The notes beneath the pieces are model-generated. The model made no database searches. It was not told where the DNA came from and saw only the letters and a program-made list of their open reading frames with translations. Shown piece after piece: positions 1-5,228 of a stretch of DNA of 10,019 nt. The stretch covers positions 1 to 10,019 of the forward strand of contig JAGCMZ010000268.1 in NCBI GenBank assembly GCA_017646225.1, written 5' to 3'. The DNA is from Paludibacteraceae bacterium. GTDB taxonomy: Bacteria > Bacteroidota > Bacteroidia > Bacteroidales > Paludibacteraceae. The position numbers were made by a program, and so were the translations under genes. Numbering within the stretch: position 1 is the stretch's first letter; each line of letters starts with the position of its first letter.

Positions 1-243
1 CAAGATTCCTTCTTTTTCAGAAGCATTTACTTTTTTAGCAGCATCCTTCAACGCAACATCTAAATCGTCTTCAGATAGGTTTTCAACCAAAGCAATAGCA
101 GCTTCTAAATCTGCTTTTAGGCTTTTAATGCCTAGCTCTTCGCCAATTTCTTGAACTAGTTCTTGTTCAAACTCGTTGTATTCACCATCAGCCCATACTG
201 CTGCAGCAAGGAATGATGCTAATACCTTTGATTCTGTTTTCAT
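1..243 (-). CDS. TerB-like protein, C-terminus beyond window
   Basis: The reading frame starts at ATG 243-241 and stays open to the window edge, giving the first 81 residues; the 3' end is missing. The protein is small and acidic, with a helical pattern. The stretch around residues 10-39 (AAAVWADGEYNEFEQE, then LGIK) resembles the acidic motif of TerB-like domains, which occur in tellurite-resistance and general stress contexts and are thought to bind metal through acidic residues. It has no signal peptide or membrane segment, so it is probably cytoplasmic. It starts 19 bp after the OmpA-like gene and is the last visible gene of the minus-strand operon. The TerB assignment rests on motif resemblance only. 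It could be another acidic helical protein, and the missing C-terminus might carry a further domain. Confidence 0.6.
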   Translation of the reverse strand, partial: MKTESKVLASFLAAAVWADGEYNEFEQELVQEIGEELGIKSLKADLEAAIALVENLSEDDLDVALKDAAKKVNASEKEGIL

Positions 244-262
244 AAAATATTTTTAATGGATA

Positions 263-1219
263 TTATTCAATAACTACAAATTCTGTTCTACGGTTTTCTG
301 CCGCCATTGGATCGGCCGCTTTTTTGGGTTGTGTACTACCCAAACCTTTGAACGATACACGACCGGCATCTACACCTCTTTCGTTTACCAAGAAATCTAC
401 AGCTGCTTTGGCACGTGCTTCTGATAATTTTTGGTTAAACGTAGGGTCGCCTTCGGCGGAAGTGTGACCTTGAATTTCTAACTTAAGACCTTCATTAGCA
501 TTGATAACTTTAGCTAAATCGTGTAGTACAAATTTGGCGTTTTCTGTTAAATCTGCTTTGCCTTGCGCAAATTCTGCTGCATTAAAGTTCTTTTCGATTT
601 CGGCAATTTGTTGAATAAATAGGGTGTCGCGAATAATCACCGTTTTTTCTACCTCAACCACTTTTTCTACTTCAACTACTTCGGTTTTACGACAAAATGT
701 TAGAAGCAACAATAACAAGATAGCAAGAGCAGCAATCAACCCCCAAACCCATGCTGGAATGCCTTTTTTAGTGGGCACTGGTGGAACATAGCCATTTAAG
801 TATTCCAAGCGGTAACCACCACGTTTACCCCAACCTTTTTCTGCTGGAATAAATTCTGCCACCTCAACATCGTATAGTTTAGCTTGTGCTACAATTTTTG
901 GGAAATTGTCTTTTGTCCACATAATATTGTAGAAGGTAATTTTGTCGCCATTTGACAGGGTAACGTATATGTTCTTTTCAAGAACATGCGCTACATGTTC
1001 ATCATCAAACGTTGTTTTTGTAGCTTTTGCTTTTTCTTTTATATTCTCAATGGTATCCCATAGTGGTTCTTCTGGATGACTATCTGTGAACGCCTTGCGA
1101 GGAAATGCTTTGTTGATATCTTCTAATGTAGCATGTGGATACATTTTTGTATATGCATCTACAATACCAAGCGCAGTCCAATATTGCGCTTTCCCGTAAA
1201 CTCTTACTTTACTTGCCAT
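263..1219 (-). CDS. Single-pass membrane protein with C-terminal OmpA-like peptidoglycan-binding domain
   Basis: The protein has 318 residues. Residues 1-150 form a soluble domain I do not recognise and carry no signal peptide. One hydrophobic helix spans about 154-175, preceded by KK at 151-152, so the N-terminal domain is probably cytoplasmic and the C-terminus periplasmic. A short valine/glutamate repeat (VVEVEKVVEVEK, about 180-191) may be a coiled-coil stalk. Residues about 212-318 form an OmpA-like domain (GHTSAEGD at 251-258, NQKLSEARAKAA at 262-273, NRRTEF near the end). In characterised members an Asp in HTD and an Arg in LSxxRA hold diaminopimelate of peptidoglycan; here the Asp position is Ser254, while Asn262 and Arg269 are kept. 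Most OmpA-domain proteins are outer-membrane barrels or lipoproteins, so this inner-membrane layout with a cytosolic head is less usual. It lies in the operon between the histone-like gene and the TerB-like gene. Confidence 0.88.
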   Translation of the reverse strand: MASKVRVYGKAQYWTALGIVDAYTKMYPHATLEDINKAFPRKAFTDSHPEEPLWDTIENIKEKAKATKTTFDDEHVAHVLEKNIYVTLSNGDKITFYNIMWTKDNFPKIVAQAKLYDVEVAEFIPAEKGWGKRGGYRLEYLNGYVPPVPTKKGIPAWVWGLIAALAILLLLLLTFCRKTEVVEVEKVVEVEKTVIIRDTLFIQQIAEIEKNFNAAEFAQGKADLTENAKFVLHDLAKVINANEGLKLEIQGHTSAEGDPTFNQKLSEARAKAAVDFLVNERGVDAGRVSFKGLGSTQPKKAADPMAAENRRTEFVVIE

Positions 1220-1282: not shown

Positions 1283-1804
1283 TTATTTCCAAACCCCTTT
1301 TTTGCAACCGTTTTTCTCACATTCTTCGTTGAATGCAGCCAGTGTCTTTTCGTCATTAGCTCCACTGGTGTAGTATCTGCTTCCATCTGCTGTTGTATAG
1401 CATACTTGAGCGTACAAACCAAATACGGTATCGAATTCTTTTTCGAGCGATTTGATTTTTTTGTTGCCAGAAATACTAATATCACCACCCGAATCTGCAC
1501 GCCTAACAGATGCTAGTGTTCTGTCATCTGGAATTCTAGCTGATAAGGTTTCTCCTCTTTTCACCATATCACGTCCATAACTATAGCAAACCCACAAGTT
1601 GAGATATGGAAATTTTTTATTAAATTCCTTGCGTAATGTTCCTACTTTCTTATTGCCAGACACCGATATTTCGGTTGCTTTTTTAGCAGGTTCGGCCTTT
1701 TTAGCCGTGGTAGTTTTTTTAGCGGGAGCTGCTTTCTTAGTTGTGGTAGTTTTTTTAGCTGTTGTGGTTTTCTTTGCAGCTGCTGTTTTCTTTGCGATTG
1801 CCAT
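1283..1804 (-). CDS. Histone-H1-like protein: lysine-rich tail plus two tandem copies of a small domain
   Basis: The protein has 173 residues. Residues 4-45 are seven perfect hexads of the form (A/T)KKxxx, giving a highly basic Lys/Ala/Thr/Pro tail like eukaryotic histone H1 and bacterial H1-like proteins. Two related domains follow: 46 to about 102 (starts ISVSGNKKVGTLRKEF, contains VCYSYG, ends TLASVRR) and 109 to about 160 (starts ISISGNKKIKSLEKEF, contains VCYTTADG, ends TLAAFNE). They align over about 55 residues with the SGNKK, LxKEF, VCY and TLA blocks conserved. The C-terminus is ECEKNGCKKGVWK. No membrane segment or signal peptide is present. DNA or nucleic-acid binding by the tail is inferred from composition, and the role of the repeated domain is unknown to me. 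Residue 1 is the natural start because the hexads begin immediately after it. The gene lies 34 bp after the 54-residue gene and 63 bp before the OmpA-like gene. Confidence 0.85.
   Translation of the reverse strand: MAIAKKTAAAKKTTTAKKTTTTKKAAPAKKTTTAKKAEPAKKATEISVSGNKKVGTLRKEFNKKFPYLNLWVCYSYGRDMVKRGETLSARIPDDRTLASVRRADSGGDISISGNKKIKSLEKEFDTVFGLYAQVCYTTADGSRYYTSGANDEKTLAAFNEECEKNGCKKGVWK
1670..1795 (-). repeat. Seven 18-bp coding repeats encoding KK-containing hexads
   Basis: Codons 4-45 of the histone-like gene encode seven consecutive six-residue units, each with Lys-Lys at positions 2 and 3. At the DNA level the units are degenerate but similar, with several A7 runs on the coding strand. 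Such arrays can gain or lose units by slippage in steps of 18 bp without breaking the reading frame, so tail length may vary between strains. Confidence 0.8.
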
Positions 1805-1838: not shown

Positions 1839-2003
1839 TTATTTTTTCTTTCCGAATATTCCTTTTAAAATAGCGCCACCTATTTTGCGTTCCAAACCTT
1901 GTTTGGTGGTAGGGACTCCTACTTTTCTAGCGACTTTGGTTTTTAAGCCCGATATACCTATTGCTCGCTTAAGCGAAAAACTTAATCCTGGAATTCTAGC
2001 CAT
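1839..2003 (-). CDS. Small basic protein of 54 residues
   Basis: ATG at 2003-2001 opens a frame that ends with TAA at 1841-1839 and gives 54 residues. It begins MARIPGLSFSLKRAIGISG and ends GAILKGIFGKKK. It is strongly basic (many Lys/Arg, a single Glu), has no acidic cluster and no clear membrane helix, although the C-terminal GGAILKGIF stretch is amphipathic. The gene fits tightly between neighbours: 6 bp after the lipoprotein stop and 34 bp before the histone-like start, all on the same strand. That spacing, and the unbroken frame across otherwise unexplained DNA, argue that it is real. The function is unknown. The charge would suit nucleic-acid, ribosome or membrane-surface binding. I recall similar short basic proteins in Bacteroidota but cannot confirm a family. 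Confidence 0.7.
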   Translation of the reverse strand: MARIPGLSFSLKRAIGISGLKTKVARKVGVPTTKQGLERKIGGAILKGIFGKKK

Positions 2004-2009
2004 TGTCTT

Positions 2010-3290
2010 TTAGTTTAAATAGTACTCTGTTTTAAAGTATTCTTTGATTGGTTTTGAAGCTAACACCTCTACCCAAACATAGTTTGCATATCGTGTGCGT
2101 TCGTTTTCAAAACCCAAATAAATCACAGATTTGCCTTTCGCTGGGATACGACCAGTGCTAGATTGCATACCCATAATGGAATGATTGATATCGTAAACGA
2201 TATTTCCATTTGTGTTGCGGTCATTAAATTTTTTAGCATGAGAAGCACTGTTGAACACGTACATATTGATGTAAGCATCTTCTTCGCGCAAGGGCGTATA
2301 ATCGCCTAAAATGGTTTTGATAATACCCGAACTCTTATTTGACTCATACACAGGGAGTCCAAGCATCTTAACCTTACGATACGAAGTATTCATATTCTCT
2401 CCAAACTCACCATCTGAAGAACGATCTGCTTCGTTGGTAGAAATACGCATGCTGTACAAAATATCTGTAGCACCTGCTGGCACTTGAATAGGTACTATAC
2501 CACGATATGTACCTGAAAATGCAGCCTTCAGCTGACCACGTAATGTAAATTTACGGGGCTCGTCAAAGATTTTAATCATTTCTATACCAGGAGAAGACCA
2601 AGCTAGGAAGTCACCTTGTTTGGCTTCTACCGTACGCTCATTAACCTTTACTGGTGTGAGTCTTTCTATTGTAGTAGTGGTATAAGCAACTGCAAAATCA
2701 GCGTATTGTGCGTTAGATCCGGGATTAAATTCGACTAAATAAATAGCTGAATTTTCTATTGGCATACTAAAATCGAAATTGGTTCTGCCAGAAAAGGTTT
2801 TAAGCGTAGAACGCGAATCGTAGTTATAAACTTTTACCGTAGCGGGAGACTTGCATTTTATTTTAACATATAGCTTGTCACCCCTTTTTAGGTAAACAGG
2901 GTAGGTAACTTTCTTTTCCACCAAACAATCTACATTGTCTACCACTGGCACGTACAATTCGCTCAAATGGGTGGTAACTGTGGTATAAATATCGTCCTGT
3001 AAACGTTCAAGTCGATGTTGCAACTCTTCGCATTTGGCAACAGAAGCCGAGTCCAAACTAAATGGATCGTAGGTATAGTTTAATTGTTCCGATAATTGAA
3101 GTAATTGGGTGGCTTGATTATAGTCCAAACTAGTAACACGCCTCAACGATCTTTGCACATCCCTAGCCAACGACAATGTTTTTTGGTAGAGTTCTAACTC
3201 GTCTTCATCTAATTGTCTCTTAATCTGCAAGCAACCTACCACTAGCAATAGGCACAGAAAGAAACTAGTATTTTTTATGAATTTGTTCAT
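2010..3290 (-). CDS. Predicted lipoprotein of unknown function, first gene of operon
   Basis: The protein has 426 residues. The N-terminus is a lipoprotein signal peptide: basic MNKFIKN, a hydrophobic core at about 8-18, and lipobox V17-V18-G19-C20, so Cys20 would be lipidated. There is no Asp at +2, so nothing marks it for inner-membrane retention. Residues about 26-110 look helical and charged, possibly a coiled coil. About 111-205 is rich in alternating beta-type segments (YPVYLKRGDKLYVKIKC, then VKVYNYDS and AIYLVEFNP), suggesting a beta-sandwich resembling GOLD-like or pre-peptidase-type domains; this is a fold guess. The rest, to about 426, is another mostly beta region containing a conserved-looking aromatic stretch (RYANYVWVEVL). 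It heads the operon, with a good promoter 17 bp before ATG 3290-3288 and a G14 tract further upstream. Function is unknown, but the context suggests an envelope component working with the OmpA-like protein. Confidence 0.85.
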   Translation of the reverse strand: MNKFIKNTSFFLCLLLVVGCLQIKRQLDEDELELYQKTLSLARDVQRSLRRVTSLDYNQATQLLQLSEQLNYTYDPFSLDSASVAKCEELQHRLERLQDDIYTTVTTHLSELYVPVVDNVDCLVEKKVTYPVYLKRGDKLYVKIKCKSPATVKVYNYDSRSTLKTFSGRTNFDFSMPIENSAIYLVEFNPGSNAQYADFAVAYTTTTIERLTPVKVNERTVEAKQGDFLAWSSPGIEMIKIFDEPRKFTLRGQLKAAFSGTYRGIVPIQVPAGATDILYSMRISTNEADRSSDGEFGENMNTSYRKVKMLGLPVYESNKSSGIIKTILGDYTPLREEDAYINMYVFNSASHAKKFNDRNTNGNIVYDINHSIMGMQSSTGRIPAKGKSVIYLGFENERTRYANYVWVEVLASKPIKEYFKTEYYLN

Positions 3291-3306: not shown

Positions 3307-3338
3307 CAAAACTAAACAAACTCAAAATACGTGTCAAA
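3307..3338 (-). promoter_or_regulatory. Promoter of the lipoprotein operon
   Basis: On the minus strand a TAGTTTTG box (3314-3307) fits the Bacteroidota -7 consensus TAnnTTTG. A TTTG (3338-3335) lies 20 bp upstream as the -33 box. Transcription would start near 3303, leaving a leader of only about 13 nt before ATG 3290. The -33 box overlaps the downstream half of the 24-bp shared element. Confidence 0.75.
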
Positions 3339-3359
3339 GTCCTTATTAGTCCATATTTT
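3336..3359 (-). promoter_or_regulatory. Shared 24-bp element, copy 1 (lipoprotein operon)
   Basis: In the direction of transcription it reads AAAATATGGACTAA, then TAAGGACTTT. GGACT occurs twice, 10 bp apart, which is one helical turn. It matches copy 2 (4086-4109) at 20 of 24 positions. It ends 21 bp before the -7 box, and its second half overlaps the -33 box. It is probably an activator or regulator binding site; the identity of the protein is inferred from the neighbouring regulator gene. Confidence 0.6.
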
Positions 3360-3360
3360 C

Positions 3361-3374
3361 GGGGGGGGGGGGGG
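3361..3374. repeat. Homopolymer tract of 14 G (C on the minus strand)
   Basis: Fourteen consecutive G lie one base upstream of the shared element and about 60-70 bp upstream of the predicted transcription start of the lipoprotein operon. Tracts of this length are prone to slipped-strand mispairing and, when placed near promoters, are a known basis of phase variation. The true length may vary in the population, and it is also a position where sequencing or assembly errors are likely. Confidence 0.9.
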
Positions 3375-3410
3375 AAAGTGAAAAAGTGCGTAAAATTAAG
3401 GCCGTTAGGC

Positions 3411-3440
3411 AAAAAAAGAGGCATATTTTGTATATGCCCT
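3411..3440 (-). terminator. Rho-independent terminator of the regulator gene
   Basis: On the minus strand GGCATAT (3438-3432) pairs with ATATGCC (3426-3420) across a 5-nt loop, followed by TC and seven T (3419-3411). It lies 37 bp after the regulator stop codon and should separate that transcript from the lipoprotein operon downstream on the same strand. Confidence 0.8.
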
Positions 3441-3476
3441 TTGTGTTATTTATAGATAATCGACCAAAATAGTTTA

Positions 3477-4049
3477 TTATTTCTTAAGTCTTACCGTTAG
3501 CAGTCCTTTTCTAGAACCTGCCACGTAAGAGGTAGGTTGGTGGCCGTCGCGCAAAAGATTGTCGAGATACATGGGATGTCCTTCTAAAAAGCACATGGTT
3601 TGAAAGGTATCACCCTCTAAAATTTTGGCATTAGCACTTTGAATTACCTTGTAGGTATTTTGACCTAGATACCTGAATACACAATGTCTGTTGGGCAACC
3701 AAGTTACTTCTATTTCTTGGCCTGCTTGTAGGTCTTCTGAACGAATACCAGACTCTATAAACTGCACACTCTCTTCGTCTTCTAATGTTTTAAGGTGCTC
3801 TAAATAGCCCTCAAAGTCGTTAAATCCTAGGAATTTAGATAGCAAACAAAGGGTAGAACGACGGGTGGTGTCTGCCCCATCTATGTATCCCCATAATCTT
3901 TTAAGTGTAGTGGGCGAGATATTTTCGTGCAGACGTTCCCATACCACTCCTGCCAAGAACTCAAAGTCGTAAGGTGTTTTGATTTGCCTGTTGACTTCAT
4001 TCTCGATGTCTTGACGTAACGATACTATTTCTGGTGAGTATTTATTCAT
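3477..4049 (-). CDS. Putative DNA-binding regulator, Bacteroidota family
   Basis: The protein has 190 residues and belongs to a family I recognise as widespread in Bacteroidota but usually annotated only as hypothetical. Residues about 1-85 are helical, with a segment (SPTTLKRLWGYI, 45-56, and RRSTLCLLSKFLGF, 63-76) that resembles a helix-turn-helix or XRE-like fold. Residues about 107-190 are a beta-rich domain with conserved-looking motifs: EVTWLPNRHCVFRYLG, then YLDNLL and YVAGSRKGL. There is no signal peptide or membrane helix, so it should be cytoplasmic. Transcription regulation is inferred from the N-terminal pattern; the C-terminal domain may sense a ligand or oligomerise. The start at 4049 fits the usual family beginning and lies just 8 bp from a -7 box, giving an almost leaderless mRNA. 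Its promoter carries the 24-bp element also found at two neighbouring promoters, suggesting autoregulation. Confidence 0.8.
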   Translation of the reverse strand: MNKYSPEIVSLRQDIENEVNRQIKTPYDFEFLAGVVWERLHENISPTTLKRLWGYIDGADTTRRSTLCLLSKFLGFNDFEGYLEHLKTLEDEESVQFIESGIRSEDLQAGQEIEVTWLPNRHCVFRYLGQNTYKVIQSANAKILEGDTFQTMCFLEGHPMYLDNLLRDGHQPTSYVAGSRKGLLTVRLKK

Positions 4050-4056
4050 AGCACTA

Positions 4057-4064
4057 CAAAGATA
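4057..4064 (-). promoter_or_regulatory. -7 box of the regulator promoter
   Basis: TATCTTTG on the minus strand (4064-4057) fits TAnnTTTG. No TTTG or TTG is present at the expected -33 position, where TAAA is found, so the promoter may need an activator bound at the shared element just upstream. The predicted start site lies only a few bases before ATG 4049-4047. Confidence 0.65.
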
Positions 4065-4085
4065 GTATTAAATCTAATAGGTTAT

Positions 4086-4109
4086 TTAGTTCTTGTTAGT
4101 CCATATTTT
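4086..4109 (-). promoter_or_regulatory. Shared 24-bp element, copy 2 (regulator gene)
   Basis: In the direction of transcription it reads AAAATATGGACTAA, then CAAGAACTAA. The two half-sites GGACTAA and GAACTAA are 10 bp apart. The element ends exactly 21 bp before the -7 box, the same distance as copy 1. Copies 1 and 2 agree at 20 of 24 positions, including 14 in a row. Confidence 0.6.
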
Positions 4110-4125
4110 TATATAGCACACGAAT

Positions 4126-4149
4126 GAAGTACGGACTAAATAGGGATAA
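4126..4149 (+). promoter_or_regulatory. Shared 24-bp element, weaker copy 3 (argF')
   Basis: It reads GAAGTACGGACTAA, then ATAGGGATAA, and agrees with the consensus of the other two copies at about 17 of 24 positions, with the core GGACTAA intact. It has the same orientation to its gene as the other copies but lies 35 bp from the argF' -7 box instead of 21. Copies 2 and 3 form an inverted pair between the divergent regulator and argF' genes. Confidence 0.4.
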
Positions 4150-4157
4150 TTTTTATT

Positions 4158-4192
4158 TTTGGTAGAAATTAAAAAGAATATCTGTACCTTTG
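4158..4192 (+). promoter_or_regulatory. Promoter of argF'
   Basis: TACCTTTG (4185-4192) is a strong match to the -7 consensus. The best -33 candidate is TTTG at 4158-4161, with a rather long 23-bp spacer. Transcription would start near 4196-4199, giving an A-rich leader of about 20 nt without a Shine-Dalgarno sequence. Confidence 0.75.
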
Positions 4193-5170: not shown

Positions 5171-5228
5171 CCCTTCGACAAGCTCAGGGACCGGCTCAGG
5201 GACTGGCTCAGGGACGGTTCGGGGACCG
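5171..5228. repeat. REP-like intergenic element with 12-bp tandem units
   Basis: Immediately after the argF' stop comes CCCTTCGACAAGCTCAGGGA (5171-5190), whose ends CCCT and AGGG are inverted. It runs into imperfect tandem units of GGCTCAGGGAC at about 5181, 5193, 5205 and 5216, spaced 12, 12 and 11 bp. The sequence is more GC-rich than its surroundings. Sequences of the TTCGACAAGCTCAGG type recur in intergenic DNA of many bacterial genomes as I recall them, so this is probably a copy of a dispersed repeat that has partly expanded. No coding function is seen. Confidence 0.65.

Follow-up and report, generated by a model that had tools for sequence, protein, structure and literature searches.

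The regulator gene, the envelope operon and their shared promoter element

The window, as we call the whole 10,019-nucleotide stretch of DNA analyzed here, derives from a Paludibacteraceae bacterium (assembly GCA_017646225.1, contig JAGCMZ010000268.1) and carries on its minus strand the gene for a 190-residue regulator (3477..4049) and an operon that starts with a lipoprotein gene (2010..3290). Upstream of each, also on the minus strand, lies a copy of a 24-bp element (4086..4109 before the regulator gene; 3336..3359 before the lipoprotein operon). With a probability of roughly four in five, we take this element to be the operator of the neighboring regulator, whose protomers would bind it head to tail and thereby probably activate the regulator's own gene and the envelope operon. 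Between the regulator gene and the lipoprotein promoter lies a terminator-like hairpin (3419..3439, minus strand); hence, the two units are probably transcribed separately.

A preliminary description of this DNA had reported an identical AAAATATGGACTAA on the minus strand at 3359-3346 and 4109-4096, and our search of the window retrieved precisely these two matches when up to two mismatches were allowed (0.24 expected). The two 24-mers agree at 20 of 24 positions, as had been described, and the second GGACT-like half-site 10 bp further on is part of a conserved core, GGACYAAnAAGGACY, which consists of two 5-bp half-sites placed 10 bp apart. This core reads GGACTAATAAGGACT (3338-3352) before the lipoprotein operon, where relatives possess the same design, and GGACTAACAAGAACT (4088-4102) before the regulator gene. 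At both promoters a TAnnTTTG -7 box on the same strand follows after a gap of exactly 23 bp (TAGTTTTG at 3307..3314 and TATCTTTG at 4057..4064, respectively); the equal spacing had been noted as 21 bp, a figure counted from two bases past the core. The AAAATAT prefix of the element shows no conservation in relatives past a short run of A residues. A run of 14 G residues (3361-3374) adjoins the element of the lipoprotein operon and is missing at the promoters of L004 and L005, the nearest relatives; since it is situated upstream of the element, a change in its length would leave the spacing to the -7 box unaltered.

In the bacterium's own genome assembly (1.4 Mb, 78% complete), GGACTAANAAGNACT is confined to the two window promoters. 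A search of the same assembly with a 22-mer and up to three mismatches likewise returned the two window elements only; its reversed control also gave two matches. The 20 shared bases could be read as the trace of a recent promoter duplication that left two similar elements, meaningless in themselves. This explanation is hardly credible, given that an identical core and spacing are present before different genes in many other genomes.

An undescribed family of Bacteroidales regulators

Searches of Pfam, NCBIfam and PHROG with the 190-residue protein gave zero family-model matches; in particular, neither a receiver domain, an OmpR-PhoB DNA-binding domain nor a MerR model was matched in Pfam or NCBIfam. 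Structure models and comparisons suggest an N-terminal five-helix domain, modeled with a predicted local distance difference test (pLDDT) score of 92 and bearing a weak likeness to lambda-repressor-like domains, and a C-terminal beta domain. When 26 N-domains of the family were searched against Pfam, neither a helix-turn-helix (HTH) model nor a MerR model was among the matches. A first search found a match to the regulator in 19 of 61 genomes, and 724 of 772 candidates were homologous to the 190-residue query at E<=1e-3. The protein is very probably a member of an unnamed and undescribed regulator family of the Bacteroidales. For this family, which has hundreds of public members and is unmatched in the searched model libraries, both an operator and a regulon can now be predicted, and relatives supply a candidate signaling partner; its function has thereby become directly testable. 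Comparisons at the level of loci were made with 79 distinct named homologous loci (the best 80 of 189 matches), which stem from Bacteroidales, Paludibacteraceae and related metagenome-assembled genomes.

Co-occurrence of the core with the regulator

The preliminary description had proposed to look for copies of the motif together with homologues of the 190-residue protein. Among 300 genomes of the family, in which the regulator was scored as present at E<=1e-60, GGACYAANAAGRACY was detected at 123 sites in 71 genomes. The 80 regulator-bearing genomes account for 93 of these sites and the other 220 for 30; 57 of the 123 share a contig with a regulator. The reversed control pattern occurs 81 times in the 300 genomes (hand count). 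Counted by genome, 45 possess both motif and regulator, 26 the motif only, 35 the regulator only and 194 neither (Fisher p = 2.6e-14). This association holds inside the largest genus, g21 (120 genomes; 30, 7, 30 and 53 in the same order; odds ratio 7.6), where a stricter, hand-listed cut-off near 1e-87 gives 26, 11, 8 and 75 (odds ratio 22), and also outside of it (180 genomes; 15, 19, 5 and 141; odds ratio 22). The element is not a chance occurrence.

Its A-rich spacers and its 10-bp repeat, both apparent in the site consensus, would also suit a phased A-tract or an UP-like promoter feature that needs no dedicated protein (the conservation of GGACY in that consensus is no test, because the sites were selected by the GGACY pattern itself). 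We regard such a feature as highly improbable, since the core tracks the presence of the regulator and the letters of the half-site track the regulator's helix, as detailed below.

Spacing to the -7 box and architecture of the repeat

Of 28 sites chosen by pattern only (28 of 30 loci; L122 and L135 were left out because the script did not locate their core), 20 have an exact TAnnTTTG box 23 bp past the core; at no site do the 80 bp that follow the core contain such a box in another position. We enlarged this set by 37 further sites, allowed one mismatch in the -7 box and counted a genome as having a homologue at E<=1e-20. In genomes with a homologue the box is found exactly 23 bp from the core at 36 of 44 sites, and at 33 bp at two more; in those without, the corresponding numbers are 3 of 21 and one. 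No such box lies within 70 bp at the remaining 17 of these 21 sites, five of which sit in frames that are open over the whole 615 bp read. Locus L202 (G007:C41), from a genome in which no regulator homologue was found, also has an element at 33 bp from a -7-like box; the open reading frame (ORF) that follows resembles superoxide dismutase by eye.

TAnnTTTG is the consensus -7 box given in excerpts of two reports (PMC9723704, PMC12632263), the first of which places it at -12 to -5 in Flavobacterium psychrophilum. Combined with a gap of 23 bp, this would put the half-site nearer the box at -40 to -36 and the other one at -50 to -46, adjacent to -33, a position that class-II activators occupy in other bacteria. 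The fixed spacing in relatives supports a factor that acts next to -33, in line with the earlier suggestion.

The repeat itself has a characteristic period. Pairs of RRACY in the named loci peak at a 5-bp gap (120 pairs, versus 43 to 86 at eight other gaps), while triplets show no enrichment at that gap (5, versus 7 at a gap of 7 bp). Longer arrays exist: four half-sites stand in L023, L095 and L096 and, judged by eye, five before a gene in L089; the window has two. Between -48 and -24, the identity at period 10 is 0.50 in 38 close promoter boxes and 0.45 in 13 distant ones, not all of which are from different genes; the next best periods reach 0.40 and 0.39, and the upstream control 0.25 and 0.28, respectively. 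The 10-bp design is therefore also present at distant homologues, a feature that, like the longer arrays, was absent from the preliminary description. Protomers arranged on 5-bp half-sites one helical turn apart would follow one another head to tail along a single face of the DNA, and the array would sit just upstream of the -33 region and touch it.

An array in this position is compatible with either sign of regulation, and one may ask whether the regulator binds and represses, blocking RNA polymerase until a signal, perhaps from a kinase, releases it. Two further points speak for repression. Of 33 in-register promoters, 14 keep a TTG beside the element, possibly a -33 box, and XRE-type regulators commonly repress themselves. 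Frequent autoregulation in that group is also mentioned in an excerpt of PMC12565409. The remaining 19 of the 33 promoters lack such a TTG, as expected of activator-dependent promoters, and the exact spacing at 36 of 44 sites is stricter than simple blocking requires. We thus consider repression possible, if unlikely. Activation is the preferred sign: the regulator would probably recruit RNA polymerase in a class-II-like manner at its own gene and at the operon for the lipoprotein, the small basic protein and the OmpA and TerB-like proteins.

The half-site varies with the putative recognition helix

Among the own-gene promoters of 76 named homologues, 40 carry the element as judged by eye, seven of them one base and one a full turn out of register. 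Regulators with an SPTTLK helix (22 promoters) are associated with half-sites of the GGAYY, GGAAC or GAACY type, with C at position 4 in 18 of them; STSTLK helices go with GAACC (4/4) and ALSTLE helices with GAAGT or GAAAT (14/14). Two helix classes can reside in the same genome (e.g., L053 with L088, and L059 with L090). The Fisher value for this association (1.3e-7) overstates the independence of the data, because each class forms a clade and near-duplicates occur among the rows.

More telling is genome G002, whose regulator is 30% identical to that of the window and has GCACT as its half-site. There, GTACTAACAAGCACT stands 23 bp before the -7 box of the regulator's own gene. At the same distance from a -7 box, GCACTAACAAGCACT precedes a run of genes in which four of the window operon's five proteins have homologues. 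GCACTAANAAGCACT was found in six of the 300 genomes: G001, G002 and G012 belong to the genus of the window and have distant homologues, and three belong to other genera; G010, which has some distant homologues as well, contains no exact match.

Some other conserved factor might bind the element, the 190-residue protein being merely a member of the regulon. Three in-register sites in genomes without a detected homologue speak for such a factor, as does the small canonical XRE-type gene near some loci (L087, L091, L106; L177, L245, L248). No more than 3 of the 79 named loci have this gene; moreover, the half-sites track the helix of the 190-residue family, and in G002 the half-site of that genome's own regulator stands before the homologous target genes. 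We therefore judge another factor improbable. The 190-residue protein, formerly called the obvious candidate, is the best one: co-occurrence, fixed spacing, the association of helix and half-site and the G002 target run with its own variant together argue that it very probably binds the element. The natural pairs of helix and half-site offer a ready-made specificity code for Bacteroidota-type promoters.

The envelope operon and the proposed arginine target

Behind the 426-residue lipoprotein, which has homologues at 10 other regulator loci and, within the genus, in 5 of 16 genomes (its own included), the operon encodes on the minus strand a 54-residue basic protein (1839..2003) and a 173-residue protein (1283..1804) with homologues at 10 other regulator loci. 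In several relatives, the ORF that comes first after the element encodes a homologue of the 54-residue protein. Next in the operon are a 318-residue protein with a C-terminal OmpA domain (263..1219), a homologue of which is encoded directly behind an element in G008, and a TerB-like protein (1..243) that is cut by the contig end and falls below the Pfam cut-off, its G008 homologue scoring just above it. All five have homologues at other regulator loci, from 5 (TerB-like) to 13 (small basic protein) of the 90 loci covered, many of which are truncated. The ORFs that recur behind in-register elements encode 52-54-residue basic proteins, 122-residue FTNAEF proteins, lipoproteins and the regulator itself; OmpA-like, TerB-like, DUF456 and ion-transport proteins are further inhabitants of the regulator neighborhoods. 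The proposal of a small regulon comprising the regulator itself and an envelope operon is supported. Ion-channel-like proteins recur in the neighborhoods L173, L174, L175 and L245 (Pfam Ion_trans in the two tested), and pyroglutamyl-peptidase-like proteins were seen by eye in L173, L175 and L245.

Arginine synthesis had been suggested as a possible further target, on account of a weaker copy of the element facing argF' at 35 bp. This copy exists on the plus strand, facing the carbamoyltransferase gene (GGACTAAATAGGGAT, 4133..4147; two mismatches to GGACTAANNAGNACT); the distance to TACCTTTG (4185-4192) is 37 bp by our count. Weak copies are not above chance in the window, which contains 10 sequences with up to three mismatches versus 7.05 expected. 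No element with fewer than three mismatches was found upstream of the carbamoyltransferase orthologue in any of the 15 other genomes of the genus. We judge the copy, which is out of register, not to be functional and reject the arginine gene as a member of the regulon. Just past this gene (5174-5228), near-repeats resembling GGGACyGGCTCA are visible by eye.

A kinase gene next door in relatives

A further feature absent from the preliminary description is a gene for a serine/threonine (Ser/Thr) kinase beside most named homologues: BLAST searches with six kinases from these loci detected such an ORF within 4 kb in 64 of the 79 loci. It lies downstream of the regulator on the same strand at 37 of the 75 loci having at least 600 bp downstream. 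One representative matches part of the Pfam Pkinase model, and all six sequences contain, by eye, catalytic-loop and DFG-like motifs as well as a hydrophobic stretch. No Ser/Thr kinase was found in a search of the bacterium's own genome (78% complete), so that the kinase step is taken from relatives only; there, the regulator may be under the control of the membrane kinase encoded beside it. Small canonical XRE-type genes lie near the kinase gene in L177 (5837-6061), L245 (5477-5689) and L248 (4289-4504), and in L006 (G023:C23) a tandem array of units of about 55 bp is seen by eye downstream of the regulator gene.

On a wider view, to which we give an even chance, these loci would represent an unrecognized signaling module of the Bacteroidales: a membrane-bound Hanks-type Ser/Thr kinase coupled to a divergent HTH regulator that polymerizes on decameric direct repeats held at a fixed distance from the -7 box. 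Where a genome contains several paralogous modules, recognition helix and half-site would have changed together and so keep the modules insulated from one another, and each would serve its own envelope lipoproteins, OmpA-like and TerB-like proteins and ion channels.

Comparison with known systems

Response regulators of the PhoB/OmpR type are activators whose direct-repeat sites, spaced by about one turn, lie immediately upstream of the promoter core, much like the window element, and they possess receiver domains and a histidine kinase partner. In contrast, no receiver domain was matched in the window regulator, and the kinase gene next door in relatives encodes a Ser/Thr kinase. The window protein may share the fold of its N-domain with XRE or lambda-repressor-like regulators, and like them it seems to regulate itself; these regulators are dimers on palindromes according to an excerpt of PMC12565409, whereas the predicted window operator is a direct repeat, and the protein matches no HTH family model.

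ArdK of plasmid R388 is likewise an HTH regulator with direct repeats in several promoters, although it belongs to the KorA family of plasmid repressors and binds as a dimer (PMC9723621, excerpt), while at least four half-sites can stand in a row here. Apl of phage 186 also binds direct repeats one helix turn apart; it is a phage excisionase and repressor, and the abstract (PMC7498355) mentions neither a fixed distance to a promoter box nor an envelope regulon. BldC of Streptomyces forms head-to-tail oligomers on direct repeats at sites of variable length and controls a regulon (PMC5859096, excerpt). Such oligomers are proposed for the window regulator, and its sites vary in length as well, from two half-sites in the window to four or five in relatives. 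BldC is a 68-residue MerR-like protein in the same excerpt, while the window regulator matches no family model and, as modeled, combines a weakly lambda-repressor-like domain with a beta domain; a further difference is the fixed distance of 23 bp between the window repeat and the -7 box.
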